DNA of 64,000 nt, from the NCBI GenBank assembly GCA_905221295.1, contig CAJNCP010000001.1:434001-498000 (forward strand). The letters run 5' to 3'. The position numbers were made by a program, and so were the translations under genes. The stretch is from a bacterium. GTDB taxonomy: Bacteria > Bacillota > Bacilli > Lactobacillales > Streptococcaceae. Shown here piece by piece: positions 1,763 to 18,919 of this stretch (positions are counted from its first letter, which is position 1; every line of letters begins with the position of its first letter). The notes beneath the pieces were generated by a model. It had not been told where the DNA came from. It did not search any database and saw only the letters and a list, made by a program, of their open reading frames with translations.

Positions 1763-4700
1763 ATGGATAAGAGATTGTTTGAGAAAAAATCTACCTATAG
1801 CATACGGAAATATGCTGTAGGAGTTTGCTCTGTTGTAATAGGAACTATGTTATTTAGTTCCCGACTAGCTGCAGCTGCAGAAGTTACCCCTACAAGTCCG
1901 GTTTCGATTGCTAGTGCAGCGACTGAGACTGATGACGCTGCTTCGGGGGCGGTAGAGAAGATTCAACCCTTAGATGAATTGCCAGCAGATTTAGCTGATA
2001 AACTAGCTAAAGCAGAGGCGGGGGGAAATGATACTCCAAGTACAGAAGGTCATGAACCAACTTCCGAAGCATCTGCGGAAGCGACTTCACCTAAAGTAGC
2101 TCAACCTAAGGTGAGCAATGAACTAACTCATCCAGAATCAGCAACAACTACACCAACAACAGAAGTTGAAAAGACTCCTGATGTCAATCATTTATTAAAT
2201 GTTCGTGTAAGCGCATCCAATCATGAACAAAATACTTCTTTTACTGCTGATAAGGCAGTTGATGGAGATAGTACTAGTCGTTGGGCGACAGATAAGGATG
2301 TAGTCAATCCTCAGTTGACTATGACACTAGATAAAGTGACATCAGTCAAACGGATTGAAATCGATTGGGATCGTAGACAGAGAACAGGACAGCCGAACGA
2401 TCCAAACATTCAAGGATGGAAACTATACTATGCTACAGCTGAAGCTATCAATGAAGAGGAAGCGACACGTAAGTGGAAATTGGCTTATGAAAAAGATGGT
2501 CAACCAGTTTTAGACGAAAGAGTTAATTTGGATGTTCCGATTGAAGCCAAATATCTCAAATTGGAAATCACTAAATATGCTGAAGGTAGTATGCGCTGGC
2601 GCAATGTCGGTATTCAGGAAATACGAGCTTATTCTAACATTCCAGAACCAGATAAGGTGACAAGTCTTAACCAAGTAGAGTCACTGACTTTGGCTCAAGA
2701 TGGCTATTCACTTGTCCTACCTAAATTACCAGGTAAGGTTAGCTTAGTTGGTAGCAATAAAACAGGCGTGATTGACCTGAATAATAAAATCCACCAGCCT
2801 CTAACGGAGCAGACAGTTAAAGTTTCTTTGCAACAAGTGCATGAAGGTCAAACCATTACCAAGGAATTTGAAGTTAGAGTTCCTGGTCGCTATGCAGACG
2901 AAGGAGTTGGAGACAAGCCAACAGTGGCTCCAACTGTTCAGCAATGGCATGGTGAGAAAGGACGTTCTTCTATTTTGGAAGATACCGTTCTATCTGTTGG
3001 AGATTCAGGATTTGACAGGGCAGCTAATTTCTATGCTAATGACTTGATTTCTCGAGGTTTAGAGCTTGCCAAGGGAGACAGTACATCCGCTCATCGTATT
3101 GAGTTTAAAAAGGTAACGGACAAGGGCTATGGTGAAGAAGGCTATGGTATTACGATTCGTGATAATGTCTTTACCATTGAAGCGCAGACAAATAAAGGTG
3201 CTTTTTATGCTACTCGAACCCTACTTCAAATGGGGCAAGAAAATATCCAAAATGGTGAAATTCGAGACTTTCCAAGTTTCAGTCACCGTGGATTTATGCT
3301 AGATACTGGTCGTAAGTTTATTCCTTATGATACCCTTGTGGACATTATGCTAAACATGGCTTACTACAAGATGAATGACTTGCAGTTGCATTTGAATGAT
3401 AACTATATTTTCCTCAAGGAGCACTTAGCAGGTAAAAATCTGACCAAGGAGCAGGAACTTGAGTATGTACTCAATCATGCAGATACAGGTTTCCGTTTAC
3501 AGACAGATATTGTCGGTGACAATGGTGTACCTTTGACTTCTAAGCAACACTATACCAAAGATGAAATGCAAAGACTCATCGCGTTGGCTGATGAGTTAGG
3601 AATCAACTTGGTACCAGAAATTGATACACCGGGGCATGCTTTATCATTTGTGAAGGTTCGTCCAGACTTGATGTATAAAGGACAGCTGAGTCCGAATAAG
3701 CACAATGTAGAGCGTGTTGCGATGCTTGATTTGGATAAGAATTATGATGAAACATTGCGCTTTGTCAAGTCTGTTTATGATAAATTGTTGGATGGAGAAA
3801 ATGCCCCACTTCGAGGTGTTAAGACAATTCACATCGGAACAGATGAGTACTATGGCAACAATGAAAACTATCGTCGTTATGTCAATGATTTGATTACCTA
3901 CATTAAAGGTAAGGGCTATACGCCACGAATTTGGGGTTCACTTAGCCGTAAGAGTGGTCAAACACCAGTTGATTTGAAGGATGTCGAGGTGGATATCTGG
4001 AGTCTAGGCTGGCAACATCCACAAGCGGCTTTGAAGGCTGGTGCTAAAATTATCAATATTACTGACGTTCCGACTTACAGTGTGCCAAATGGTAATAACC
4101 AGCAAGGAGCATACGGTGATTACTCTTCTTATGAGTATCAATATAATCGTTGGACACCAAATGATTTTACGACAGCAGGAAATGGTCCAAAATTAGCTGC
4201 TTCAAACCCTCATATCTTGGGTGGTGGACATGCTGTTTGGAATGATAATATTGATCTCCACGAAACAGGCATGACTTCTTATGATATTTTCAAGCGCTTC
4301 TTTGAAGCAACAAGAGTTACTGCTGAAAAGACATGGGGATCAAACCGAGCTGCTAACAACTTTGAAGGAAGAACCTTACCACACGCAGACTATGTTTATG
4401 CACCGGGTAGTAATCCAGAGTACAAGATTGATGATACTGAGACCTATGAAATCAATCCAAAGACAATCAAGCGTTACGATGCAGAAAACATCACACAAAG
4501 CGCTAAAGGTCTAGTCTTCAATAAAGAAAGCAAGATTGAAAATGCCATTGGGAACGTCGGTCCAAGTCACGTCTTAAAAGTTGATGTGACGGTTACAGGT
4601 GACGGTGTGCAGGAGTTAGCTTCTAGTGAGGGGAACAAGCTCTATTTGTCTGATGAGTCAGGTAAAGTAGCCTATAAGTTTGAGCAGCACCATATTCAGT

Positions 4701-7700
4701 TTGATAAGACATTGGAAAAAGGTAAACGCTATGAGCTAGTCTTTGTCACCAAACCTCAGTCAACTGAGCTCTATGTCAATGGTGAAAAGATCAATCGTAT
4801 TGCCAACCCAGCTCACCCAAGATTGGCTCACACAAGTCTTGTTCTACCTCTTGAAAAAATCGGAGGTTTTGAAGGTACTTTGCACAATCTCAGCTTGTCT
4901 GATAAGCCATTTGTCAATCCACGTTTGATTGCACAGGATCAGATTGCCCGTGTGGAAGCAAGCAGTGAGCAACTACCAGGAAATGCTACAGAAGGAGCTG
5001 TTTCTAAAGCCTTTGATGGGAATCCTGCAACCTTCTGGCATTCACATTGGACGAAGAAGGATCCGTCTTATACGGTTACTATGACCTTGAAGAAAGCGAC
5101 AGCTGTAAATGCTTTGACTTATCTTCCTCGTCCAGGTGGCGGAAATGGTCTTGTGACTAAATATGAAGTCTATGCTAAAAAGGCTGATCAATTGGTTAAG
5201 GTAGCTGAAGGTAGTTGGGATAATAATGCAGCTGAAAAGATTGCAAACTTTGAAGCTGTCGAAACGGATACAATCCAGTTGAAGATTCTACAGGGAGTAG
5301 AAGGATATGCCAGTGCAGCTGAAATCAATCTTTTGAAACCAATAGCTGCATCAGATGAGCCTGCTACACCACCAGCACCAAAACCAGATCTAAAACCTGA
5401 AATTCCAGCTCCGAAAGATGACGGAACTGTTGAATTGGAAGATACCTTTATCGCTAAAAAACCAGCAGATCCAAGTGTAGTAGAAGCAGCTTTGAGAAGC
5501 CAAGAATACCTTAAGAAACAGTATAAGATTTTCCCAACTCCTCATAAGGTTACTTATGGTGATGGCTTGGTACGTCTAGATAAGAAAGTTCATTTGGTAA
5601 TTGGTGAGCAAGTTGATATTTACACTCGTAATCGACTCAAGTCTATTTTGCAAAATAGCAATATCTCCTATACCACTGGTAAGACAGCCGAAGCTGGAGC
5701 AACTAATATCTATCTGGGAGTTCACCAGACTGGCTCAAAAGCGGAAGAAGCTCAGAAAAGAGAGCCTGTCAACCAAGGACTATTTGATAAGATTGATGCT
5801 TATTCATTAGTGGTTAAAGGTCAGCAAATTTCCATTGTCGGAAAAGATACAGATGCTGTCTTCTATGGACTAACAACACTCAAGCATATGCTAAATGATA
5901 GCTCTGCTCCAGTTCTACGTGAGGTCAATGTTGAAGACTATGCTGATGTGAAGAATCGTGGCTTTATCGAAGGCTATTATGGTAACCCATGGTCCAACGA
6001 AGATCGTGCGGCCTTGATGCGCTACGGTGGTGATTTGAAACTGACCCAGTATTTCTTCGCACCAAAAGATGACCCATATCACAACAGCAAGTGGAGAGAA
6101 CTTTATCCAAAAGAAAAACTAGAAGAAATCCGTCAGCTCGCTAAGGTGGGGAACGAAAACAAGACTCGCTATGTTTGGACCATTCATCCATTTATGAATA
6201 GTCGAATTCGCTTCCAAAACGAGACGGTTTACCAAGAAGACCTGAATGCAATCAAGGCTAAATTTACCCAGTTACTGGACGTCGGCGTTCGTGAGTTTGG
6301 TATCCTTGCAGATGATGCAGCTCAGCCTTATGGTGGTTATGAAAGTTATAACCGCTTGATGAAAGATATGACCGATTGGTTGACTGAAAAACAAGCGACT
6401 TATCCGGGCTTGAAGAAAGAGATGATTTTTGTTCCAAGTCAGTATTGGGGTAATGGTCGGGAAGACGAACTGCGTTCCCTAAACCGTAATCTTCCGAAAA
6501 GTAGCATTATGACTCTGACAGGAGGCAAGATTTGGGGTGAAGTTTCTGAAAACTTCTTGACTCAACTTAAGCAAAATATAGAGGCATCTGGTCAACCATA
6601 TCGTCCTGTTCAACTTTGGATCAACTGGCCGTGTACAGATAATTCTAAACAACACCTTATCTTGGGTGGTGGTGAGAAATTCCTACACCCTGATGTGGAT
6701 CCAAGCCTAATCGGTGGGGTCATGCTCAATCCGATGCAGCAATCAGAACCATCTAAAATTGCTCTCTTCTCAGCTGCAGAGTACAGCTGGAATATCTGGA
6801 AGAATGAGGCAGAAGCCAAAGCTGTTAATGATATAGCTTTCAACTTTGCAGAAACAGGTCGTTTCACAGATACCAAAGAATCTGTAGCTTTCCGTGAGCT
6901 AGGTAAGCACATGATTAACCAACATATGGATAATCGTGTTGTGAAGCTAGAAGAGTCTGTAGAGCTAGCTCCGAAATTGACAAACTTCATGAACAAGCTG
7001 AAAGCAGGTCAAGATGTTTCAGCTGAGCGCAAAGAGTTGAAGGCAGAATTTGCTAAGCTAAAAGCTGCTGCTGAGACCTATAAAGCATCAGGAAATGAAC
7101 AGATGCGTGAGCAGATTAAGTACTGGCTTGACAATACCATTGACCAGATGAATGCCTTAGATGCTCTCTTAACAGCTACTGAATTTATTGGTAGCAAAAA
7201 TGCTGACGGTCTTTGGAATAATTACTACAAGGGCTTGAAAGATTATGAGCAATCTAAGAAACATTCCTTCTGGTATGTTGACCACTACGAAAATGCTGAG
7301 CTAGGTGTACAGCATATCCGTCCATTTATCCTTAACCTTAAAGAATATCTGGCTAAGGAGGTCGAAAAAGAACTGAATCCAGATAAAGTTGTAACGACCT
7401 TTATTACTAACCGTACAGGTGGTGAAGGAGATTTGACTCAGGTATTGGACGGAGACTTGTCAACTCAAGTTATCTTTAAAAATCCAACCAGAATTAGTAC
7501 TGGCGATTATGTTGGACTTCAGTTCAATAAGCCTATTTCTATCAAGAAATTGAGCTTTGCTATGGGAGCTATCAGCAATCCGAAAGATACCTTTAACAAG
7601 GCCAAGATTGAATACTTAAATGAGGCGGGTGAGTGGACTGCCCTTCCTCAAGGTAACTATGTCGGCAATGAATCTGAGATTACCTTAGACAATCTTGACA

Positions 7701-10700
7701 TCAAAGCCAAAGGTATTCGAATGGTTGCAACAGAAGACCGAGACAATACTTGGTTTGCAGTCCGTGAAATCGCAGTTAACCGTCCTCTTGAAAATGCCAA
7801 GAAGAAAGCTGGAAGCATTACCATCAGTCCAAATCTGGTCTATAAACTTAATACAACGTCTGCCAAGATGACAGATAATAGTGATAGCACAGAAGCAATG
7901 TTGGCAAGTTCTTCAACAGCAAATGGAGAAAGAGATACAACCCCAGTAGATGCTTGGGTGCAGTTGGATCTTGGCTCTCAACAAACAGTCAAGAAGATTC
8001 GTTTGGTACAAGGTGTGACAGATAAGCTAGCATCTGGTGTCATCGAAGTCTCTACTGACGGACAAAACTGGACAACAGTGGCCAACTTGACAGGTGAGCA
8101 AAGCAAAGAAGTTGAAACCAATCAGAATATCCGTTATGTACGCGTTAGAAATACGCAAAAGACGAATTTCTGGTGGCGAATTGGCAACCTATCTGTCGAG
8201 TCAGAAACTGGAACAGACCAATACACAGATACTAATGTTGATCAACTCAAGGCTACTCAAGTCCATGAAAAATTGGGTCGCTACGAGATGAATATTCCAA
8301 CTGGAACAACTTTAGATGCGGGTCAATATCTTGGCATGAAACTAGATCGCCTCCATGAAATTGGGGATTTGAAACTAGGTGAGAATGCCAATCAAGCACT
8401 CCAGCTCCGCTATTCTCCAAATGGAGTGGAGTGGTATAGGGCTTCTGAATTACAAGACCACCAGCTCGTCCGTTATGTACGTCTTGAAAACAAGACGGGT
8501 CAGAAACAGGCAATCGGAACGACTTCCTTGCTTTTGACTACTAAGGAAATTCAACCAACATCAATTGAGTCAACCAGCATGGGTATCGATCCTAACTATG
8601 GTAGCGGAGATGTTCGTAAAGCGAAAAACCTAGACCAGCTCTTTGATGGTGATTTAAACAATTATGTTGAATTTTCTGATTATCCACAAACCGATGGTCA
8701 TATGACGCTCAATCTTGGAGCAACCCGTCAAATCAAGAAGATTCGTGCCTACATTAAAGATGGCACACAGAACTATCTTCGTGATGGAAAGATTCAAGTT
8801 AGCGCAGATGGCAAGACCTGGAAAGATGTCGTTTCAGTGGGAGATGGTCAGGAAAATCCAGCACGTGACGACTCCTTAACTGATGGCTGGACACATGATT
8901 CACAGCGACCTGGAAATCGCTATATTGAGGGAGAATTGCCAGAAGCAACTGCAGCGAAATATCTCCGAGTGCTCTACACAGCTCCTTATCGTCATCGCTT
9001 TGTTGGATTTACAGAGTTAGTTATTAATAATGGAGAATACACTAAGTCAGTCAATAATCCAACTGTGGAAGGTGCGGGTACAGAGAGCAAGTCATCTGAA
9101 AAGAATAATATAGCAGATGGAAATATTCTCAGCAGTTACAAAGCGACCCAAGACAGCGGTGAGTTGATTTACCATCTATCTGAAAAGACAGAATCGAATC
9201 ATGTTCGCCTGATTTCAGATATTCCAGCAGGAAGCTCAGCGCACGTTTGGGCAAGAACCATTTCCAAAGATGGCCAAACAGCATGGCAAGATCTGGGTGC
9301 GGTTACCACAAGTTTCCAAACCTTCCAGCTTGCTAACAGCGCCCACTTATTAGATGTTAAGTTGAAGTGGGAAGGTGGTCGTCCTGAGTTTTATGAGGTT
9401 TCTACCTATCATGCTGAGATAGCTGAGACACCTAATCCAGATACACCAAAACCACCAGTTCACAAGACGACACCAGATGAAGGCGTTCAATCTCCTGTAG
9501 TTGAACAACCGCGCTTGGATGTGGTAACTGAAGAGGTTGCTTTCAAGACTATTGAACGCGAAAATCCGCAATTGCCTAAGGGCACCCGAAAAGTTGTCCA
9601 AGAAGGCAAGGTTGGTGAGAAGACCACGCTTGTTGAAGTAACGATTGAAAATGGCAAGGAAAGCGGTCGAGTGACTCGAGATAGCTTTGTTTCCAAAGCC
9701 CCAGTGGATCAAATCGTGGAAATCGGTAAACCAGTCGAGCAAGTAACGCCAGACCAAGGCGTTCAATCTCCTGTAGTTGAACAACCGCGCTTGGATGTGG
9801 TAACTGAAGAGGTTGCTTTCAAGACTATTGAACGCGAAAATCCGCAATTGCCTAAGGGCACCCGAAAAGTTGTCCAAGAAGGCAAGGTTGGTGAGAAGAC
9901 CACGCTTGTTGAAGTAACGATTGAAAATGGCAAGGAAAGCGGTCGAGTGACTCGAGATAGCTTTGTTTCCAAAGCCCCAGTGGATCAAATCGTGGAAATC
10001 GGTAAACCAGTCGAGCAAGTAACGCCAGACCAAGGCGTTCAATCTCCTGTAGTTGAACAACCGCGCTTGGATGTGGTAACTGAAGAGGTTGCTTTCAAGA
10101 CTATTGAACGCGAAAATCCACAGTTGCCTAAGGGCACCCGAAAAGTTGTCCAAGAAGGCAAGGTTGGTGAGAAGACCACGCTTGTTGAAGTGACGATTGA
10201 AAATGGCAAGGAAAGTGGCCGAGTGACTCGAGATAGCTTTGTTTCCAAATCTCCAGTGGATCAGATCGTGGAAATTGGTAAACCAGTTGAGCAAGTAACG
10301 CCAGCTGCGGGTGATAAAGAACTTGTAGTTGAACAGCCACGCTTGGATGTGGTAACTGAAGAAGTTGGCTTCAAGACCATCGAGCGTGAGAATCCACAGT
10401 TGCCTAAGGGCACTCGAAAAGTTGTCCAAGAAGGCAAGGTTGGTGAGAAGACCACGCTTGTCGAAGTGACGATTGAAAATGGCAAGGAAAGTGGCCGAGT
10501 GACTCGGGATAGCTTTGTTTCCAAAGCACCAGTCGATCAGATCGTGGAAATCGGTAAACCAGTCGAGCAAGTAACGCCAGCTGCGGGCGATAAAGAACTT
10601 GTAGTTGAACAGCCACGCTTGGATGTGGTAACTGAAGAAGTTGGCTTCAAGACCATCGAGCGTGAGAATCCACAGTTGCCTAAGGGCACTCGAAAAGTTG

Positions 10701-11050
10701 TCCAAGAAGGTAAGGTTGGTGAGAAGACCACGCTTGTTGAAGTGACGATTGAGAATGGTAAGGAAAGCGGCCGTGTGACTCGAGATAGTTTCGTTTCCAA
10801 AGCACCAGTCGATCAGATCGTGGAAATTGGAAGTAAGGAAGAAAAACCAGAAATTCCTTCACAAGATCAAACTAACAAGCCTGATTCTCCTCAGAATCAA
10901 GAAGCTAAACCAGAGGCACCGCTACAGACTCCAGAAAGAAAAGAGACTGCAGTCTTGCCAAATACTGGAACAGCAACAGATTCCGCCTTCTTACTTGGTC
11001 TTTTAACCGCCTTGACAGGATTGTTCCTGTTCAAAAAGAGGGAAGAGTAG
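1763..11050 (+). CDS. Giant LPxTG-anchored GH20-GH84 glycosidase with multiple CBM32-like and G5 modules
   Basis: This 3095-residue secreted, wall-anchored protein has two glycosidase modules. Visible order: YSIRK signal peptide (about 1-39); linker; F5/8C (CBM32)-like module (about 141-292); GH20 catalytic module (about 393-860) with the acid/assist pair D694-E695 in HIGTDEYYG; LamG-like segment (about 913-1053); second CBM32-like module (1060-1192); GH84 module with its N-terminal beta domain (about 1250-1700) and the catalytic D1517-D1518 in ILADDA; helical bundle (about 1735-1860); further F5/8C-like modules (about 1871-2423); five G5 repeats (2574 onward); LPNTG and a membrane tail. GH20 enzymes remove terminal HexNAc (or lacto-N-biose); GH84 enzymes remove beta-GlcNAc from glycans or O-GlcNAc proteins. 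The likely targets are host glycans outside the cell. Exact specificities are inference. A promoter and a perfect cre site precede it, and bgaA follows. Confidence 0.93.
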   Translation: MDKRLFEKKSTYSIRKYAVGVCSVVIGTMLFSSRLAAAAEVTPTSPVSIASAATETDDAASGAVEKIQPLDELPADLADKLAKAEAGGNDTPSTEGHEPTSEASAEATSPKVAQPKVSNELTHPESATTTPTTEVEKTPDVNHLLNVRVSASNHEQNTSFTADKAVDGDSTSRWATDKDVVNPQLTMTLDKVTSVKRIEIDWDRRQRTGQPNDPNIQGWKLYYATAEAINEEEATRKWKLAYEKDGQPVLDERVNLDVPIEAKYLKLEITKYAEGSMRWRNVGIQEIRAYSNIPEPDKVTSLNQVESLTLAQDGYSLVLPKLPGKVSLVGSNKTGVIDLNNKIHQPLTEQTVKVSLQQVHEGQTITKEFEVRVPGRYADEGVGDKPTVAPTVQQWHGEKGRSSILEDTVLSVGDSGFDRAANFYANDLISRGLELAKGDSTSAHRIEFKKVTDKGYGEEGYGITIRDNVFTIEAQTNKGAFYATRTLLQMGQENIQNGEIRDFPSFSHRGFMLDTGRKFIPYDTLVDIMLNMAYYKMNDLQLHLNDNYIFLKEHLAGKNLTKEQELEYVLNHADTGFRLQTDIVGDNGVPLTSKQHYTKDEMQRLIALADELGINLVPEIDTPGHALSFVKVRPDLMYKGQLSPNKHNVERVAMLDLDKNYDETLRFVKSVYDKLLDGENAPLRGVKTIHIGTDEYYGNNENYRRYVNDLITYIKGKGYTPRIWGSLSRKSGQTPVDLKDVEVDIWSLGWQHPQAALKAGAKIINITDVPTYSVPNGNNQQGAYGDYSSYEYQYNRWTPNDFTTAGNGPKLAASNPHILGGGHAVWNDNIDLHETGMTSYDIFKRFFEATRVTAEKTWGSNRAANNFEGRTLPHADYVYAPGSNPEYKIDDTETYEINPKTIKRYDAENITQSAKGLVFNKESKIENAIGNVGPSHVLKVDVTVTGDGVQELASSEGNKLYLSDESGKVAYKFEQHHIQFDKTLEKGKRYELVFVTKPQSTELYVNGEKINRIANPAHPRLAHTSLVLPLEKIGGFEGTLHNLSLSDKPFVNPRLIAQDQIARVEASSEQLPGNATEGAVSKAFDGNPATFWHSHWTKKDPSYTVTMTLKKATAVNALTYLPRPGGGNGLVTKYEVYAKKADQLVKVAEGSWDNNAAEKIANFEAVETDTIQLKILQGVEGYASAAEINLLKPIAASDEPATPPAPKPDLKPEIPAPKDDGTVELEDTFIAKKPADPSVVEAALRSQEYLKKQYKIFPTPHKVTYGDGLVRLDKKVHLVIGEQVDIYTRNRLKSILQNSNISYTTGKTAEAGATNIYLGVHQTGSKAEEAQKREPVNQGLFDKIDAYSLVVKGQQISIVGKDTDAVFYGLTTLKHMLNDSSAPVLREVNVEDYADVKNRGFIEGYYGNPWSNEDRAALMRYGGDLKLTQYFFAPKDDPYHNSKWRELYPKEKLEEIRQLAKVGNENKTRYVWTIHPFMNSRIRFQNETVYQEDLNAIKAKFTQLLDVGVREFGILADDAAQPYGGYESYNRLMKDMTDWLTEKQATYPGLKKEMIFVPSQYWGNGREDELRSLNRNLPKSSIMTLTGGKIWGEVSENFLTQLKQNIEASGQPYRPVQLWINWPCTDNSKQHLILGGGEKFLHPDVDPSLIGGVMLNPMQQSEPSKIALFSAAEYSWNIWKNEAEAKAVNDIAFNFAETGRFTDTKESVAFRELGKHMINQHMDNRVVKLEESVELAPKLTNFMNKLKAGQDVSAERKELKAEFAKLKAAAETYKASGNEQMREQIKYWLDNTIDQMNALDALLTATEFIGSKNADGLWNNYYKGLKDYEQSKKHSFWYVDHYENAELGVQHIRPFILNLKEYLAKEVEKELNPDKVVTTFITNRTGGEGDLTQVLDGDLSTQVIFKNPTRISTGDYVGLQFNKPISIKKLSFAMGAISNPKDTFNKAKIEYLNEAGEWTALPQGNYVGNESEITLDNLDIKAKGIRMVATEDRDNTWFAVREIAVNRPLENAKKKAGSITISPNLVYKLNTTSAKMTDNSDSTEAMLASSSTANGERDTTPVDAWVQLDLGSQQTVKKIRLVQGVTDKLASGVIEVSTDGQNWTTVANLTGEQSKEVETNQNIRYVRVRNTQKTNFWWRIGNLSVESETGTDQYTDTNVDQLKATQVHEKLGRYEMNIPTGTTLDAGQYLGMKLDRLHEIGDLKLGENANQALQLRYSPNGVEWYRASELQDHQLVRYVRLENKTGQKQAIGTTSLLLTTKEIQPTSIESTSMGIDPNYGSGDVRKAKNLDQLFDGDLNNYVEFSDYPQTDGHMTLNLGATRQIKKIRAYIKDGTQNYLRDGKIQVSADGKTWKDVVSVGDGQENPARDDSLTDGWTHDSQRPGNRYIEGELPEATAAKYLRVLYTAPYRHRFVGFTELVINNGEYTKSVNNPTVEGAGTESKSSEKNNIADGNILSSYKATQDSGELIYHLSEKTESNHVRLISDIPAGSSAHVWARTISKDGQTAWQDLGAVTTSFQTFQLANSAHLLDVKLKWEGGRPEFYEVSTYHAEIAETPNPDTPKPPVHKTTPDEGVQSPVVEQPRLDVVTEEVAFKTIERENPQLPKGTRKVVQEGKVGEKTTLVEVTIENGKESGRVTRDSFVSKAPVDQIVEIGKPVEQVTPDQGVQSPVVEQPRLDVVTEEVAFKTIERENPQLPKGTRKVVQEGKVGEKTTLVEVTIENGKESGRVTRDSFVSKAPVDQIVEIGKPVEQVTPDQGVQSPVVEQPRLDVVTEEVAFKTIERENPQLPKGTRKVVQEGKVGEKTTLVEVTIENGKESGRVTRDSFVSKSPVDQIVEIGKPVEQVTPAAGDKELVVEQPRLDVVTEEVGFKTIERENPQLPKGTRKVVQEGKVGEKTTLVEVTIENGKESGRVTRDSFVSKAPVDQIVEIGKPVEQVTPAAGDKELVVEQPRLDVVTEEVGFKTIERENPQLPKGTRKVVQEGKVGEKTTLVEVTIENGKESGRVTRDSFVSKAPVDQIVEIGSKEEKPEIPSQDQTNKPDSPQNQEAKPEAPLQTPERKETAVLPNTGTATDSAFLLGLLTALTGLFLFKKREE
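9482..10829 (+). repeat. Array of five 276-bp G5-domain repeats
   Basis: Units of exactly 276 bp (92 residues) begin with equivalent Gly codons at 9482, 9758, 10034, 10310 and 10586. The last unit is shortened. Each unit encodes one G5 domain (VVTEEV ... EIGKPVEQVTP). Units 1 and 2 look identical at the DNA level and the others differ at only a few positions. The linker has two versions: DQGVQSP for early units and AAGDKEL for late units. G5 domains are extended stalk-like adhesion modules of surface proteins. Confidence 0.95.
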
Positions 11051-11219: not shown

Positions 11220-11233
11220 TGTAAACGCTTACG
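11220..11233 (+). promoter_or_regulatory. cre site overlapping the bgaA promoter region
   Basis: TGTAAACGCTTACG matches the CcpA consensus at 13 of 14 positions. It lies 27 bases before the bgaA ATG. A possible -10 (TAAAAT, 11214-11219) directly abuts it, though no convincing -35 was found. Catabolite repression of bgaA is the expected effect. Confidence 0.75.
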
Positions 11234-11260: not shown

Positions 11261-14200
11261 ATGGAAAAGAAATGTAAGTATAGTATTAGAAAATACGCTA
11301 TCGGTGCTTGCTCTGTCATGATTGGAGCACTATTATTCGGTACATCTTTGGCATCGGCTGATGAAGTACAGGCACCTAGTCCAGCAATAGCTAGAGGGGA
11401 AGTTTCAGACAGGGGGGGAACTGAAACTGGTGAGGTCGAGCAACTTGAAGGAAAGACAAACTTGGCAACTGAAGAAACTGCTCAGTTCGTCAAAGCGAAG
11501 GCAGATGAAGACACACCAACTCCTTCTAAAAAGAATGAAAATGGAAAGGCAGAAAGTTCAGAATCAGTTCTGCCAGATTCTTCTTTTAGTCAGAAAGACA
11601 AAAATACGATAAATTCAGAACAAGTCTCACACCAATCTCAGTCTCTAAGAACTGTAGAACAAGAAAAGCCAGCACCGCTGATTTCAAAGGAACAAAATCA
11701 GGTACAACCGATAACAACATCTCCAGTTACCGAAGAAGAGAAAGCCTTACTTGAGGCTCGTAAGCAAAACTTTAATAAAGACTGGTACTTTAAGCTCAAC
11801 CCTACCGGAGATCAATCTAAAGAAAATATTGATATGAAGGACTGGAAAAAGCTCAATCTCCCACATGACTGGAGTATTTTCTTTGACTTTGATCACTCGT
11901 CTCCAGCTCGCAACGAAGGTGGTCAGCTAAATGGTGGAGTAGCCTGGTATCGCAAGACCTTCACACTGGAGGAAGAAAATAAAGACAAGAATGTCCGTTT
12001 GACCTTTGATGGGGTTTATATGGATTCGCATGTCTATGTCAATGGGAAACATGTTGGACACTATCCAAACGGCTATAATCAATTCTCTTATGATATTACA
12101 GACTACCTCTACAAAGATGGTCGTAAAAACACGATTGCAGTTCAGGTCACCAATAAACAACCAAGTAGTCGTTGGTACTCAGGAAGTGGTATTTATCGAG
12201 ATGTTCATCTGAAGATGACAGATAAGCTACATGTCAGCAAGCACGGCAATACTATTACAACACCGAAGTTAAAGGAGCAACAAAAGGGTGATGTTGATAC
12301 GGTTATTGCAAGCAAAGTTGTCAATACAGATAGCAAGGCACATCAGGTTTATGTTGAACACCAAGTCTTTACCAAAGAAGGCCAGGCTGTCTCAGCTGCT
12401 GTTCGCTCTGTTATAAAAGAACTTGGAGCCAATCAGGAGCTACAATTTGACCAGACCCTTCAGGTCAACCGTCCTACTCTATGGACGACCAAATCAGATA
12501 AACCTCAGCTCTATGTCATGAAGACTAAGGTTTATAGGGACAATCAGTTGGTTGATGTGACCGAAGATACCTTTGGCTATCGCTACTTTGATTGGACTGC
12601 AGCAGAAGGATTTTCACTAAATGGTGAGCGCATGAAATTCCACGGCGTATGTATTCACCAGGACAATGGAGCCTTAGGTTCGGAAGAAAATGCCAAGGCC
12701 ATCTATCGTAAACTAAAATTACTCAAGGAGATGGGAGTCAATGCTATTCGTACTTCCCACAACCCAGCCAGCGAGCAATTGTTGAATGCTGCGGCTGAAC
12801 TTGGATTCTTAGTACAAGAAGAAGCATTTGATACTTGGTATCATAGTAAAAAGACCTATGACTACGGCCGCTTCTTTGATCAAGAAGCAACCCATCCAGA
12901 TGCTAAACCGGGTGAGAAGTGGTCTGACTTTGATTTGAGAATGATGGTTGAAAAGGACAAAAACAATCCATCCATCATCATGTGGTCTCTCGGAAATGAA
13001 GTAGAAGAAGCCAATGGTGATGAGCGCTCTATTGCGACTGCTAAGCGCTTGAAGGCTGTTATCAAAGCAATTGACAAAGAGCGCTATGTCACTATGGGTG
13101 AAAACAAATTTAGTCAACGTTCTTCTGGAGATTTTCTGGAAATCGCTAAAATCATGGACGTTGTCGGAATGAACTATGGGGAGCACAACTATGAAGCCGT
13201 GCGTAGAGCTCATCCAGACTGGAAGATCTATGGATCCGAAACTTCTTCTGCAACTCGAACTCGTGGTTCTTACTATGACCCATCACGGATTTTAAACCAT
13301 GACCACAGCGCTGGTCGTCACTACGAGCAGTCTGACTATGGAAATGACAAGGTGGCTTGGGGACGAACAGCGACTCAATCATGGACCTTTGATCGTGATC
13401 GTGCCGGTTATGCAGGTCAATTTATATGGACTGGTATTGACTATATCGGTGAACCAACTCCTTGGCATAATATGGACCGAACACCAGTAAAGAGCTCCTT
13501 CTTTGGTATTATTGACACAGCAGGTTTGCCTAAGAATGACTTCTATCTTTACCAAAGCCAATGGCGCTCAGTCAAAGATAAGCCGATGGTTCATATGCTT
13601 CCACACTGGAATTGGGACGAGCAAAGCTTGCGAGATAGAAAGATGCTGGTTGATGGCAAAGTACCTGTTCGCGTATTCTCAAATGCAGCTAGCGTTGAAC
13701 TTTATTTGAACAATGAATCACTTGGTAAGAAGACCTTCGCTAAGAAACAGACTGCTGATGGCAGAAGTTACCAAGAAGGTGAAAATGGTCAACTCTATCT
13801 GGAGTGGAAGGTTGCTTATAAACCGGGTACACTTGTAGCAGTTGCTCGAGATGAGTCTGGCAAAGAGATTGCCCGTGATACCGTGACAACTGCTGAGCAA
13901 GCAAGCAATGTTCGCCTTGTCAAAGAAGAGCATGTTATCGGAGCGGATGGAAAAGACTTGACCTATATCCATTATGAAATCGTAGATGCTAATGGTAATC
14001 TCGTACCAACTGCCAATAACCTTGTGCATTTCAATCTTCATGGTCAAGGTGAGATTGTTGGTGTGGATAATGGTGAGCAGGCTAGTCGTGAACGTTATAA
14101 AGCTCAAGCAGATGGAACCTGGAAGAGAAGAGCCTTTAATGGTAAGGGTGTCGTCGTCGTTAAGTCAACTGAAACAGCAGGAAAGTTTACCCTCTTCGCT

Positions 14201-17200
14201 GATTCAGAAGGTTTGGGCTCTGATTCTGCAACTGTTTATACAGTGAAAAAAGACCAATCGGTCAAGGAATTAGTCGGTTTCCTTCCTGCAAAAGCGACAG
14301 CTATGGTTGGTGACGAAGTACAACTTCCACAGACAGTCAAAGCTGTCTATAGCGATGGCAGTACAGAAGATAAGTCCGTGACTTGGCAGGCTCCGGCTGA
14401 CCTGACTAAGACCCATGGTGTCAAAGAGGTTACAGGAAGCGTAGAAGGGACGAAGCATCCAGCTCGCTTGATAGTGAAGGTACTAGATTTGGTTGCCTGG
14501 TTACCGAAAAAACAGACGGTACCAGTCAATACTGATACAGAAGACTTGGATAAGACGGTTACTGCGGTATTCTCTGATGGCTCGACCTCGGATACAGAAG
14601 TCAGCTCATGGACTTTGGAAGATCCAGAAGCCCTGAAGACTGAAAAAGGTGAAACAAAGGCTACAGGTAAGATTGAAGACACCGATATCTCAATTCCAGC
14701 AAGATTTAAAGCATCCGATGAGGAGGTGCCAGAAGGTTCTGTGACAGGCATTCAGATTGCTGGCAAGAGTCTGGCAGACTTTAGTGCAGACAAGACTTAC
14801 TATCGTATTCCGCTTGCTTATGGAGCAACTATTCCGACTGTTTCAGCAACCACAAGCGGTGGAGCGACAGCAACCATTCAGCAGGCTGGTGCTGGTAATG
14901 ATAAGTTAACTTCTATTTTTGTAACAGATGAGTCTGGCCGCCTAACTAGAGTTTATCGCTTGCAGTTTGTTGAGGCTAGTCCAGCCTTGACTGGTATCGA
15001 ACTTGAAGTGGATAAGACAGAAAATCTGGTTGAAGATCAAGCTATACCATATAAGGTCAAAGGTGTTTATGAAGATGGCACAAGAGCGCTTCTGTCGGAA
15101 AATGATGTAGAACTCACGATTAAGTCTGGAGATGGAGCAGAAGTAAAAGCGGAAAATGGCAAGCTTTTACTCTACCGTAAAGGAACAGCTCATATCTCAG
15201 CTCGTCTTACCAAGGGAGACAAAACTCTGACTTCGAAAGAGTTGACCTTAAATATTGTTGAAAATGCGCAAGAAAAAACCATTACAGAACTTCGGCCGAT
15301 TAAGCTATCAACAGACTTGCATAAGTTGCCAAGTCTTCCGCAAGAAGTTCTAGCAGTTTATAATCAAGGTTTGCCACGTAAGGTAGCCGTTACTTGGGAG
15401 CCGATTTCCCAAGAAAAGGTTGATCACTATCATAGCTTTACCGTCAAGGGGCGAGTAGCAGGTACTGACATTGATGCGCAAGCTCATGTGACTGTTGAAG
15501 GCTTCTTGACAGCTGAAGAAGTGTCATTGGCTGTATCAAAAGGTGAGAAGATTAAACTTCCTGCAACAGTTCGTACTTATCATTCTGATGGCAGTGTCCA
15601 GTATAAAGAAGTAGCTTGGGATGATGTTCCGGCAGATGCCACAGCTCAAGCTGGGAAAGTAGAAGTTACAGGAACAGTTCAGGGACTCAATTTGAGAACC
15701 AAGGCTCACATCCGAGTGTCTGAGCAAACGGTCCAAAACAAAAATATCTCTAAACAATGGACAGGGTCAGAACTTCCAGCAGCCTTTGTATCGGATACTG
15801 GTGGGGATGACAGTGCTAGCGCTTTAAATGATACCCATGTTTCAAGAACCCCAAGTGGAGCCAAGAACCGTTGGACCAACTGGCGTACTGGTAATGAAGA
15901 AGATTATGCAGGTATTCTATTTGGAGATGCAGGCGACTTGACCAAACGCTTCGTTGACAATCTAAAAGCAGATTTTTATACAGACGGTGCTATTGGCCTA
16001 CCAGAGGACTATGTCATTGAATACTACGCTGGCAAAGATCTTCCAGAATTACCAAAAGATGTCAACCATGTCCGCAAAGAAGCGCAGCATCCATTCAACC
16101 AAGCAAGTAATTGGAAGCCTGTAACCGGTCTTCGTGCGCCTCAGACTCTGAGTGCTAATTCTGAAAATGTTTTCCGCTTTGATAAGGTAGAAACACCGGC
16201 TATCCGTATTCGTATGAAGAAGAAAGCGAACACTTCAGGTGTTGGTTTAACCGAGCTGACCGTTATGGGTAACAGTGTTGAAGAGGCGACAAGCGCAAAA
16301 GCTAAGCTTATGGTGGATGGACAAGCTATCCCAGGATTTAACAGTGCTATCAAGGAATATGAGATTGTCAAGAAAGAAACAGGCAATCAAGTGACCGCAG
16401 AAGTTAGCGATAATGGTTTGGCGACAGTCATTCCAGCCGCAACTGAAAAGGATCCTGTTCGTGTCCTCATCAAGGCTGAAAATGGTCAAATCATAGATGA
16501 GTACCGCATTCGCTTTGTTAAAGAAAGTAAGCAAGTAGGCAAGCCGGTGGCAGCTGAAACATTATCAACGGTCGTGAATGTTGGAGATAAACTCAATTTG
16601 CCATCAACTGTACCTGTTTATTATCCAAATGGTACAGAGTGGACTAAGAAAGATTTAGCCGTTACTTGGAATCCAGTTGATGAAAGTCTGCTTCAGACCA
16701 AAGGCAACTTTACACTGACAGGAACGATTCCGGGGACAGATTTGCAAGCGCGGCTTAAAGTACGAGTAAGCGAGCAAACTGGACGTAACGCTGCTTTGAA
16801 CCAAAATCACAATGACCAAGATTCTCTGGCTTTTGCCTCAATAACAAATGATACAGATCCAGCTTCAAAAGACAAGGTTTACTATGTCAATGATGGTTCG
16901 ACTAACGAAAGCAATCGCTGGACCAACTGGTCAAGACAGGCTCCAAGTAAAGAAGTGTCTGTTGGTGTGCTCTTCAAAAAACAAGGTAAAATTGCTGCTG
17001 AAACAGTGACGCAAGTAGGTATGCAATTCTTCAGAGATGGTGGAACAGATGCACCACAAAAACTAGTTTTAGAATACTATGCTGGACCAGATTTTGCTGA
17101 ACCAAATCCGACTTCACGCTATTCTGAGCAGGCTGATCATCCGTTCAACGATCCAAATAATTGGAAGCAGTTGAACTATACAGCAGACAGTGAAATCAAA

Positions 17201-18919
17201 GCTGGCAAGATGATTCATTTCAACTTTGATGCTGTTAAAACAAAAGCTATCCGTGCTCGCATGACGCGCAAGGATACTACTAACGGAATTGCTCTAGTAG
17301 AATTCTCTGCAGTTACTCCAACAGAGGCGCTTCAGTCAACGACAACAACAAGCATTACTGTCAACGGTCAAACCTTGTCTAATTTTGCAGCAGATAAGAC
17401 AGATTACCGTCTGGAGTATCAAGGTACAAGGCCAAGGATTGAAGCTACCGCAACAAACAATGCAACTGTGACAGTAGTTCAATCTGAGAGCGATGAGCTT
17501 CCAAGTCTTGTTCGTGTGGTGACGGAAGACGGTCAAACCATTAAAGAATACCGTATCCAATTAGTTAAAAAGTTTGCGGATCCAAGTCAACCAACACCAC
17601 CAGTTCACAAGACGATACCAGATGAAGGCGTTCAATCTCTTGTAGTTGAACAACCGCGCTTGGATGTGGTAACTGAAGAGGTTGTCTTCAAGACTATTGA
17701 ACGCGAAAATCCACAGTTGCCTAAGGGCACCCGAAAAGTTGTCCAAGAAGGCAAGGTTGGTGAGAAGACTACGCTTGTTGAAGTGACGATTGAAAATGGC
17801 AAGGAAATCGGTCGAGTGACTCGGGATAGCTTCGTTTCTAAAGCTCCAGTCGATCAAATCGTGGAAATTGGTAAACCAGTTGAGCAAGTGACACCAGACC
17901 AAGGCGTTCAAGCTCCTGTAGTTGAACAACCGCGCTTGGATGTGGCAACTGAAGAAGTTGGCTTCAAGACCGTCGAACGTGAAAATCCACAGTTGCCTAA
18001 GGGCACTCGAAAAGTTGTCCAAGAAGGCAAGGTTGGTGAGAAGACCACGCTTGTTGAAGTGACGATTGAAAATGGCAAGGAAATCGGCCGAGTGACTCGA
18101 GATAGCTTCGTTTCCAAATCTCCAGTGGATCAAATCATGGAAATCGGTAAACCAGTCGAGCAAGTGACACCAGCTGCGGGTGATAAAGAACTTGTAGTTG
18201 AGCAGCCACGCTTGGATGTGGTAACTGAAGAAGTTGGCTTCAAGACCATTGAACGCGAAAATCCACAATTGCCTAAGGGCACCCGAAAAGTTGTCCAAGA
18301 AGGTAAGGTTGGTGAGAAGACTACGCTTGTTGAAGTGACGATTGAAAATGGCAAGGAAATCGGTCGAGTGACTCGGGATAGCTTCGTTTCTAAAGCTCCA
18401 GTCGATCAAATCGTGGAAATCGGTAAACCAGTCGAGCAAGTGACACCAGCTGCGGGTGATAAAGAACTTGTAGTTGAGCAGCCACGCTTGGATGTGGTAA
18501 CTGAAGAAGTTGGCTTCAAGACCATTGAACGCGAAAATCCACAATTGCCTAAGGGCACCCGAAAAGTTGTCCAAGAAGGTAAGGTTGGTGAGAAGACCAC
18601 GCTTGTTGAAGTGACGATTGAGAATGGCAAGGAAAGTGGTCGAGTGACTCGAGATAGCTTCGTTTCCAAAGCTCCAGTGGATCAAATCGTGGAAATTGGA
18701 AGTAAGGAAGAAAAACCAGAAATTCCTTCACAAGATCAAACTAACAAGCCTGATTCTCCTCAGAATCAAGAAGCTAAACCAGAGGCACCGCTACAGACTC
18801 CAGAAAGAAAAGAGACTGCAGTCTTGCCAAATACTGGAACAGCAACAGATTCCGCCTTCTTACTTGGTCTTTTAACCGCCTTGACAGGATTGTTCCTGTT
18901 CAAAAAGAGGGAAGAGTAA
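11261..18919 (+). CDS. bgaA: Surface-anchored GH2 beta-galactosidase, BgaA type
   Basis: This 2552-residue protein follows the pneumococcal BgaA plan: YSIRK signal peptide (to about residue 35); GH2 sugar-binding and Ig-like domains (about 169-436); GH2 barrel (from about 437) with the acid/base E580 in SLGNEVEE and the nucleophile E660 in YGSETSS; bacterial Ig-like (Big_4) modules near 997-1155 and 1340-1487; a CBM71-like module (about 1492-1670) with the RWTNW motif; another Ig-like domain; a second CBM71-like module (about 1840-2025); four G5 repeats; LPNTG, membrane helix and KKREE tail. BgaA removes beta1,4-linked galactose from host N-glycans and also acts as an adhesin through its CBM71 modules. 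AGGAAGG precedes the ATG. Its last ~75 residues are identical to those of the upstream GH20-GH84 protein. The two enzymes together would strip Gal and then GlcNAc. Confidence 0.96.
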   Translation: MEKKCKYSIRKYAIGACSVMIGALLFGTSLASADEVQAPSPAIARGEVSDRGGTETGEVEQLEGKTNLATEETAQFVKAKADEDTPTPSKKNENGKAESSESVLPDSSFSQKDKNTINSEQVSHQSQSLRTVEQEKPAPLISKEQNQVQPITTSPVTEEEKALLEARKQNFNKDWYFKLNPTGDQSKENIDMKDWKKLNLPHDWSIFFDFDHSSPARNEGGQLNGGVAWYRKTFTLEEENKDKNVRLTFDGVYMDSHVYVNGKHVGHYPNGYNQFSYDITDYLYKDGRKNTIAVQVTNKQPSSRWYSGSGIYRDVHLKMTDKLHVSKHGNTITTPKLKEQQKGDVDTVIASKVVNTDSKAHQVYVEHQVFTKEGQAVSAAVRSVIKELGANQELQFDQTLQVNRPTLWTTKSDKPQLYVMKTKVYRDNQLVDVTEDTFGYRYFDWTAAEGFSLNGERMKFHGVCIHQDNGALGSEENAKAIYRKLKLLKEMGVNAIRTSHNPASEQLLNAAAELGFLVQEEAFDTWYHSKKTYDYGRFFDQEATHPDAKPGEKWSDFDLRMMVEKDKNNPSIIMWSLGNEVEEANGDERSIATAKRLKAVIKAIDKERYVTMGENKFSQRSSGDFLEIAKIMDVVGMNYGEHNYEAVRRAHPDWKIYGSETSSATRTRGSYYDPSRILNHDHSAGRHYEQSDYGNDKVAWGRTATQSWTFDRDRAGYAGQFIWTGIDYIGEPTPWHNMDRTPVKSSFFGIIDTAGLPKNDFYLYQSQWRSVKDKPMVHMLPHWNWDEQSLRDRKMLVDGKVPVRVFSNAASVELYLNNESLGKKTFAKKQTADGRSYQEGENGQLYLEWKVAYKPGTLVAVARDESGKEIARDTVTTAEQASNVRLVKEEHVIGADGKDLTYIHYEIVDANGNLVPTANNLVHFNLHGQGEIVGVDNGEQASRERYKAQADGTWKRRAFNGKGVVVVKSTETAGKFTLFADSEGLGSDSATVYTVKKDQSVKELVGFLPAKATAMVGDEVQLPQTVKAVYSDGSTEDKSVTWQAPADLTKTHGVKEVTGSVEGTKHPARLIVKVLDLVAWLPKKQTVPVNTDTEDLDKTVTAVFSDGSTSDTEVSSWTLEDPEALKTEKGETKATGKIEDTDISIPARFKASDEEVPEGSVTGIQIAGKSLADFSADKTYYRIPLAYGATIPTVSATTSGGATATIQQAGAGNDKLTSIFVTDESGRLTRVYRLQFVEASPALTGIELEVDKTENLVEDQAIPYKVKGVYEDGTRALLSENDVELTIKSGDGAEVKAENGKLLLYRKGTAHISARLTKGDKTLTSKELTLNIVENAQEKTITELRPIKLSTDLHKLPSLPQEVLAVYNQGLPRKVAVTWEPISQEKVDHYHSFTVKGRVAGTDIDAQAHVTVEGFLTAEEVSLAVSKGEKIKLPATVRTYHSDGSVQYKEVAWDDVPADATAQAGKVEVTGTVQGLNLRTKAHIRVSEQTVQNKNISKQWTGSELPAAFVSDTGGDDSASALNDTHVSRTPSGAKNRWTNWRTGNEEDYAGILFGDAGDLTKRFVDNLKADFYTDGAIGLPEDYVIEYYAGKDLPELPKDVNHVRKEAQHPFNQASNWKPVTGLRAPQTLSANSENVFRFDKVETPAIRIRMKKKANTSGVGLTELTVMGNSVEEATSAKAKLMVDGQAIPGFNSAIKEYEIVKKETGNQVTAEVSDNGLATVIPAATEKDPVRVLIKAENGQIIDEYRIRFVKESKQVGKPVAAETLSTVVNVGDKLNLPSTVPVYYPNGTEWTKKDLAVTWNPVDESLLQTKGNFTLTGTIPGTDLQARLKVRVSEQTGRNAALNQNHNDQDSLAFASITNDTDPASKDKVYYVNDGSTNESNRWTNWSRQAPSKEVSVGVLFKKQGKIAAETVTQVGMQFFRDGGTDAPQKLVLEYYAGPDFAEPNPTSRYSEQADHPFNDPNNWKQLNYTADSEIKAGKMIHFNFDAVKTKAIRARMTRKDTTNGIALVEFSAVTPTEALQSTTTTSITVNGQTLSNFAADKTDYRLEYQGTRPRIEATATNNATVTVVQSESDELPSLVRVVTEDGQTIKEYRIQLVKKFADPSQPTPPVHKTIPDEGVQSLVVEQPRLDVVTEEVVFKTIERENPQLPKGTRKVVQEGKVGEKTTLVEVTIENGKEIGRVTRDSFVSKAPVDQIVEIGKPVEQVTPDQGVQAPVVEQPRLDVATEEVGFKTVERENPQLPKGTRKVVQEGKVGEKTTLVEVTIENGKEIGRVTRDSFVSKSPVDQIMEIGKPVEQVTPAAGDKELVVEQPRLDVVTEEVGFKTIERENPQLPKGTRKVVQEGKVGEKTTLVEVTIENGKEIGRVTRDSFVSKAPVDQIVEIGKPVEQVTPAAGDKELVVEQPRLDVVTEEVGFKTIERENPQLPKGTRKVVQEGKVGEKTTLVEVTIENGKESGRVTRDSFVSKAPVDQIVEIGSKEEKPEIPSQDQTNKPDSPQNQEAKPEAPLQTPERKETAVLPNTGTATDSAFLLGLLTALTGLFLFKKREE
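17627..18698 (+). repeat. Array of four 276-bp G5-domain repeats in bgaA
   Basis: The repeats begin at equivalent Gly codons at 17627, 17903, 18179 and 18455. They are the same 92-residue unit as in the upstream gene, with the same two linker types and nearly the same DNA sequence. The following 3' segment (about 18699-18917) matches 10830-11048 of the first gene essentially base for base, and similarity stops right after the stop codon region. Confidence 0.95.

Follow-up and report, generated by a model that had tools for sequence, protein, structure and literature searches.

A wall-anchored streptococcal protein joining GH20 and GH84 domains: a candidate debranching enzyme for mucin O-glycans that accompanies GH101

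Results

The window analysed here is a stretch of 64,000 nt, and all coordinates are positions in it. At 1763–11050 on the + strand, a streptococcus of the mouth group carries a single open reading frame (ORF), from ATG to TAG, for a wall-anchored protein of 3095 aa, by whose residues the parts below are numbered; they all lie on the same strand. From the N to the C terminus, the protein is composed of a YSIRK signal, a discoidin-like module, GH20, a LamG-like module, a CBM32-like module, a Pro-rich linker, GH84, a helical domain, CBM32-like modules, five G5 domains and LPNTG. The YSIRK signal (residues 7–31, 1781–1855) is found by Pfam, and the LPNTG sortase motif (residues 3065–3069, 10955–10969) by its motif and by NCBIfam. 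The LPXTG anchor scores 19.6 with the Pfam model, just below the cut-off of 20, and 22.2 with the NCBIfam model, above the cut-off of 15.9. With a YSIRK signal and an LPXTG-type anchor, the protein belongs to the sortase-anchored YSIRK surface proteins. The ORF, the Pfam domains, YSIRK and LPNTG together confirm the original prediction of one wall-anchored protein carrying both GH20 and GH84.

Ahead of GH20 lie a discoidin/CBM32-like module (residues 154–287, 2222–2623), which NCBIfam NADase_discoid matches below its cut-off, and the domains preceding the GH20 barrel (residues 316–505, 2708–3277), where the alignment with Am2136 begins at residue 316. The GH20 catalytic domain (residues 506–858, 3278–4336) scores 118 bits with the Pfam profile PF00728, against a cut-off of 22.3. 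Its catalytic pair D694-E695 (3842–3847), assigned by motif and alignment, is located within HIGTDEYYG and is invariant in the alignment of 18 GH20 regions; the motif is kept in 70/70 GH20 domains of the genome census described below. Am2136 is the nearest solved GH20, aligned over residues 316–1010 with about 333 bits. The structure model of this half is moderate (pLDDT 72.5, pTM 0.54) and too weak to judge the pocket; its best fold matches are all GH20, with Am2136 first at a TM of 0.46. The NCBIfam equivalog for beta-N-acetylglucosaminidase, NF041654, gives 299.3 bits, short of the curated cut-off of 1000. The window protein has one GH20 catalytic stretch, not the two GH20 domains per chain that mark StrH.

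Between the catalytic domains lie a LamG-like module (about residues 896–1050, 4448–4912, with boundaries of our own), a CBM32-like module (residues 1065–1188, 4955–5326) and a Pro-rich linker (residues 1191–1250, 5333–5512), read from the translation and from comparison with the separate genes of an Aerococcaceae locus, L032. This linker is the likely fusion point of the GH20 and GH84 halves. LamG- and CBM32-like spacers had been predicted here. The CBM32-like one is found by Pfam, but the LamG-like one has no Pfam match in the window protein at E 0.001, and Laminin_G_3 is scored behind GH20 in homologues only (L167 above the cut-off; L070 with 24.7 bits, below the cut-off of 27.6).

The GH84 half begins with a domain preceding the barrel (residues 1254–1393, 5522–5941), matched by the Pfam GH20b model. 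The GH84 catalytic domain (residues 1399–1688, 5957–6826), also recognized by fold comparison, scores 274.7 bits with the family profile PF07555 (NAGidase), against a cut-off of 25. The pair D1517-D1518 (6311–6316), again assigned by motif and alignment, lies within ILADDAAQ and is invariant in 26 aligned GH84 regions, and the motif is kept in 94/94 census domains. GH84 is therefore not missing, its Asp pair looks intact, and the catalytic residues of both halves had been predicted right to the number. Among solved GH84 enzymes, CpGH84A is the nearest by sequence (655 bits vs 203 for NagJ). The structure model of this half has a mean pLDDT of 91.0 and a TM of 0.94 to CpGH84A at 48% identity, so by both sequence and fold CpGH84A is a nearer relative of the domain than NagJ or OGA. 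These comparisons place the GH84 half in a CpGH84A-like subgroup, with a predicted beta-N-acetylglucosaminidase function. Behind the barrel lies a helical domain (residues 1691–1863, 6833–7351), delimited by the CpGH84A comparison and the structure model. It is followed by C-terminal CBM32-like modules (residues 1872–2434, 7376–9064), which match Pfam as well as 2ls6 (1872–2008) and 4txw (2292–2434), and by a stalk of five G5 domains, a 276-bp tandem repeat at 9473–10827 found by Pfam and by repeat search. Pfam counts five F5/8C stretches in the whole protein and finds the further F5/8C modules and the G5 stalk behind the catalytic domains, as foreseen. Pfam, the nearest structures and the catalytic pairs likewise support a protein whose two domains are both presumably aimed at HexNAc and which adjoins a BgaA-type beta-galactosidase.

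Upstream of the GH20-GH84 gene are three small genes, which we take from their translations to be rplU, prp and rpmA, and then a terminator-like hairpin with a 12-pair stem (1432–1459, + strand). Since the hairpin closes these small genes, the GH20-GH84 gene appears to begin its own unit. A promoter-like TTGACA-17-CATAAT (1667–1695, + strand) has 11/12 consensus positions, in a region where such matches, 24 in all, are no more frequent than expected (29.9). An open frame on the - strand at 292–771 runs antisense to the L21-like gene and has the look of a shadow frame rather than a gene. A scan for defence systems found nothing.

Downstream lies the BgaA-type GH2 beta-galactosidase gene (11261–18919, + strand; 2552 aa), with two BgaA-type CBMs, four G5 domains and an anchor; it is assigned by PF21606 (337.5 bits) together with GH2 domains. 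The last 1301 bp of the two genes are 94.4% identical (9750–11050 vs 17619–18919); the final 200 bp differ at one position, and the identity ends abruptly. This stalk-and-anchor cassette is probably kept alike by gene conversion. The 210-bp gap between the genes holds a long inverted repeat, seen by eye, and a cre-like site, the kind of site bound by CcpA, at 11220–11232 (+ strand), 28 bp before the BgaA start and with one mismatch to the published consensus. Another cre-like site (1725–1737, listed on the + strand) lies 25 bp before the GH20-GH84 start and matches the published consensus exactly on the - strand. One operon for both genes was set aside, as BgaA has its own cre-like site and the 210-bp gap holds the inverted repeat; the data speak more for a common control signal than for a single transcript.

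The published consensus (PMC3198803), with one mismatch allowed, gives six matches in the window, which are both strands of three sites, vs 3.42 expected; two of the three sites precede GH20-GH84 and BgaA. The contrast with other ORFs under the published consensus is a fairer test than such chance figures. Within 250 bp upstream in relatives, the published consensus is found before 40/65 GH20-GH84 genes, 12/13 BgaA-like genes and 35/514 other ORFs; a cre-like site with one mismatch allowed is found before 43/65, 12/13 and 4/514, respectively. The site is absent at one mismatch from 22/65 GH20-GH84 genes, and L158 and L166 lack it within the window clade. The strict pattern WTGNAARCGNWWNCW occurs in the window only before GH20-GH84, and in relatives before 4/91 GH84 genes vs 2/514 others. 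The pattern TGWAARCGYTTWC was drawn up with both window sites already known, which biases the number of matches expected by chance (0.05). GH84 genes located behind a GH2 gene have the site in 0/9 cases with either pattern, as would be expected if they share the transcript of the upstream GH2 gene. Pneumococcal bgaA is described as CcpA-repressed in PMC3198803, and both window genes are probably under CcpA control, judging from their upstream sites.

A protein search returned 370 relatives, and both Pfam catalytic domains were seen by eye in every one of the 120 matches listed. A profile census of 284 Streptococcus genomes found GH84 in 91 genomes, at 103 places. Leaving out eight short GH84 frames of up to about 570 aa, and G152, whose match falls below the threshold, gives a long-GH84 set of 94 loci in 82 genomes; since named and unnamed loci overlap, all counts use these 94 census loci alone. 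Fused forms number 76: GH20-GH84 (68), GH2-GH84 (6), GH101-GH84 (1) and GH2-GH84-GH20 (1). Among unfused loci, GH84 stands alone less than 1 kb downstream of a GH2 gene in 10, is split from GH20 in one (L144:6013-14169, GH20-GH84 broken into two frames) and shows none of these arrangements in seven. Altogether, in 87/94 loci GH84 is fused to a GH20, GH2 or GH101 partner or follows such a gene by no more than 1 kb. In L098 a GH2 frame lies 1.6 kb upstream of GH84, the GH84 of L130 sits at a contig end, and L168:3-6839 carries Laminin_G_3 and weak alpha-L-arabinofuranosidase-like matches before GH84 in one frame; four loci (L169–L172) have no partner in reach. Masked bases fall between the first and last catalytic domain in 3/76 fused loci (L153, 31 X, between domains; L162, 1; L166, 2), and in the GH101-GH84 case X occurs only beyond both domains. 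Among named loci, S. suis, S. entericus and S. azizii carry the GH2-GH84 form. The GH101-GH84 form occurs in a single genome, S. oralis DD24, present as both L053 and L135.

Outside the genus, in L032 and a Faecalibacillus locus (L070), a GH84 gene comes directly after a GH20 gene, in the same order as the two halves of the window protein, and this is likely the unfused state. In a 49-row tree of GH84 domains, L032 falls in the unresolved base of the clade holding the streptococci, and architecture and neighbour classes change at least 11 times, counted without direction. The GH20-GH84 fusion is not a one-off. A further fusion partner for GH20 is seen in P0122 (Streptococcus sp. E17BB, 2482 aa), whose GH20 shares 68% identity with the GH20 of L032 and which has sialidase domains in place of GH84.

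A GH84 acting on mucin O-glycans should accompany GH101 more than it accompanies N-glycan or hyaluronan enzymes, and this premise was tested in the 284-genome census. GH101 is present in 82/82 long-GH84 genomes vs 12/202 others; since the genomes share ancestry, and most of the 82 form one large group, these and the following counts are not independent and their Fisher values overstate the case. The N-glycan enzyme GH85 is found in 65/82 vs 46/202, the BgaA CBM in 70/82 vs 61/202, and hyaluronate lyase, a polysaccharide lyase matching PF02278, in 4/82 vs 36/202, that is, more rarely with long GH84. The window organism's own genome is outside the GH101 counts; its nearest relatives (G133, G001, G127) carry GH101 elsewhere in the genome. 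The pairing is one-way, as 12 genomes have GH101 without a long GH84. Genomes with the short GH84 of about 570 aa show the opposite pattern, with GH101 in 1/8 and hyaluronate lyase in 7/8, and this short form may serve another pathway; the eight are G278, G016, G176, G039, G014, G276, G063 and G017.

Twelve long-GH84 genomes lack the BgaA CBM, and there GH101 is kept in 12/12 and GH85 in 1/12. In nine of them GH84 and GH101 are on different contigs, and in the other three they are 21 kb, 383 kb and at least 0.5 Mb apart. At such distances, one transferred cluster or physical linkage does not explain the pairing in these 12. GH101 is also the next gene upstream of 57/63 GH20-GH84 loci with at least 2.5 kb of upstream DNA (68 fused in all), at a gap of 54–592 bp. 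GH101 does not adjoin GH20-GH84 in the window or in the nearest relatives, L151–L153. A GH2 gene is next downstream in 8/60 fused loci with enough downstream DNA. The predicted BgaA neighbour thus stands for the window (11261–18919) but does not hold as typical of the family. Judging from the 82/82 genomes and the 57/63 upstream neighbours, the constant companion of long GH84 is GH101. The upstream GH101 proteins (L006–L026 and others) often have an N-terminal trypsin-like domain.

Discussion

Our data suggest that the wall-anchored window protein acts as an exo-enzyme in two steps on host glycans, chiefly mucin-type O-glycans, and that its GH84 and GH20 domains bare core 1 for GH101, a reading that we consider moderately probable. 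The BgaA family removes beta-galactose. Removal of the covering beta-galactose by BgaA would bare GlcNAc, after which GH84 would remove the branching GlcNAc (beta-1,6 on core 2 and core 4) and GH20 would remove other terminal GlcNAc, most likely beta-1,3. The remainder, core 1 or the bare core, would be released by GH101. The CBM32-like modules may hold the protein on the glycan, the G5 stalk would raise it above the wall, and repression by CcpA would set in when better sugars are available. We infer the linkages, the order of the steps, the binding by the CBMs and the control by CcpA; the beta-1,3 linkage is a guess by analogy with BbhI. PMC10245121 describes the release of GlcNAc from a core-2 oligosaccharide by the four GH84 enzymes of C. 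perfringens. In Bifidobacterium bifidum, according to the same paper, the GH84 enzyme BbhIV cuts beta-1,6 and the GH20 enzyme BbhI cuts beta-1,3 GlcNAc, and on core 4 GH84 must act before GH20.

The protein might instead be a trimmer of complex N-glycans, a second StrH, in which both domains cut beta-1,2-, beta-1,4- or beta-1,6-linked GlcNAc off the mannose arms after NanA and BgaA and so feed EndoD (GH85). The presence of GH85 in 65/82 long-GH84 genomes is consistent with this, as is the quick cleavage of GlcNAc-beta-1,2-Man by the GH84 enzymes BbhIV and BbhV, stated in PMC10245121. However, GH85 is missing from 17/82 of these genomes and GH101 from none. In addition, a separate StrH-like ORF with two GH20 domains, besides the fused GH20, is present in seven of the 11 GH84-bearing genomes checked (G001, G133, G127, G020, G122, G093, G071), so the N-glycan role looks filled in those seven; such an ORF was not found in the other four (G022, G023, G025, G200). 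An N-glycan enzyme as the whole account is therefore unlikely. N-glycans are likely enough as a second substrate, by analogy, because related GH84 enzymes cleave GlcNAc-beta-1,2-Man. Far less credible still, at long odds, is the function implied by the database name hyaluronoglucosaminidase, a hyaluronidase or a protein O-GlcNAcase, to which those names and the family relation to NagJ and human OGA would point. The domain is nearer CpGH84A than NagJ or OGA. The co-occurrence disfavours a hyaluronidase role, as hyaluronate lyase is rarer with long GH84 (4/82 vs 36/202) and goes with the short form instead (7/8). Proteins carrying O-GlcNAc are few outside host cells, which is where this protein sits.

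Five F5/8C stretches and a long stalk would also suit a protein that is chiefly an adhesin, binding host glycans by its CBM32-like modules with the enzyme domains as bystanders, and pneumococcal BgaA is itself called an adhesin, too, in PMC3198803. Yet the catalytic motifs are kept in all 94 GH84 and all 70 GH20 census domains, and we find a chiefly adhesive role quite improbable. The fusion may, alternatively, be an accident without coupling, leaving two independent enzymes on one anchor. This is doubtful, though it deserves more weight than the adhesin: the linker between GH20 and GH84 is long and Pro-rich, and L032 and L070 have separate adjacent genes. Against it, this GH84 has been fused to several enzymes that all serve one pathway, and the 49-row tree needs at least 11 changes in architecture or neighbours. 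Such joining argues for selection for proximity, though not for domain contact.

Returning to mucin O-glycan debranching, the streptococcal GH84 may be a roaming module whose fusions with GH20, GH2, GH101 and GH2 plus GH20 arose in separate lines. It would be kept solely in genomes that have GH101, because it would serve to convert branched cores into core 1, on which GH101 acts. We give this extension an even chance. If true, it would offer commensal streptococci a route past core 2, which the pneumococcal core-1 enzyme alone handles poorly.

Both GH20 and GH84 are established families, and public databases already list the protein under general names. In a search of titles and abstract openings in the open-licence literature, to which most subscription papers are external, we found no description of the GH20-GH84 fusion, the dependence on GH101 or the swapping of partners. 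The pneumococcal set of NanA, BgaA, StrH, EndoD and Eng is described for N-glycans and core 1 in a review (PMC9937060). A table of that review lists pneumococcal hyaluronate lyase as GH84, which looks like a slip for a polysaccharide lyase that matches PF02278. We also considered the proteases MdpS and MdpS2 of S. oralis and dropped any connection with them, as PMC10830703 and PMC12557822 describe these as TsaD- and TsaB-like. A surface GH84 that in the genomes examined is always found with GH101 names a likely missing step in the breakdown of branched mucin O-glycans by oral streptococci. The GH84-GH101 pairing also corrects the name hyaluronoglucosaminidase. In addition, the repeated joining of one module with enzymes that follow one another in a pathway clearly illustrates how gene fusion can point to shared function.

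Several known systems resemble parts of the window protein. CpGH84A of Clostridium perfringens (PDB 6PV4) has the GH84 barrel, the preceding domain and the helical domain in common with it, whereas the window protein adds the GH20 half, the YSIRK signal, the G5 stalk and the sortase anchor. CpGH84A is reportedly, in work by Pluvinage from 2019, restricted to beta-1,2 and beta-1,6 GlcNAc. The structures that the C-terminal CBM32-like modules resemble, 2ls6 and 4txw, are both labelled hyaluronoglucosaminidase. StrH of Streptococcus pneumoniae is likewise a wall-anchored GH20 protein with G5 domains, and 2ltj, which we take to be StrH, matches residues 2575–2658; StrH has two GH20 domains and no GH84. 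In Am2136 of Akkermansia muciniphila (PDB 6JQF, 7EZT), D412, E413 and Y415 align with D694, E695 and Y697. Unlike the window protein, Am2136 has one catalytic domain and no wall anchor, and it is portrayed as a generalist with broad specificity in PMC9673926. A direct precedent for the idea of one polypeptide addressing two linkages is given by BbhI and BbhIV of B. bifidum, extracellular GH20 and GH84 enzymes that both carry CBM32 and attack core 4 one after the other (PMC10245121). These are two genes, whereas the streptococcal GH20 and GH84 are one polypeptide, and the two systems are likened by description, not by sequence. SiaBb3 of B. bifidum (GH33 and GH123; PMC12856340) is also a single chain whose two catalytic domains take consecutive steps in mucin O-glycan breakdown, but its families are others and so is its epitope, Sda.
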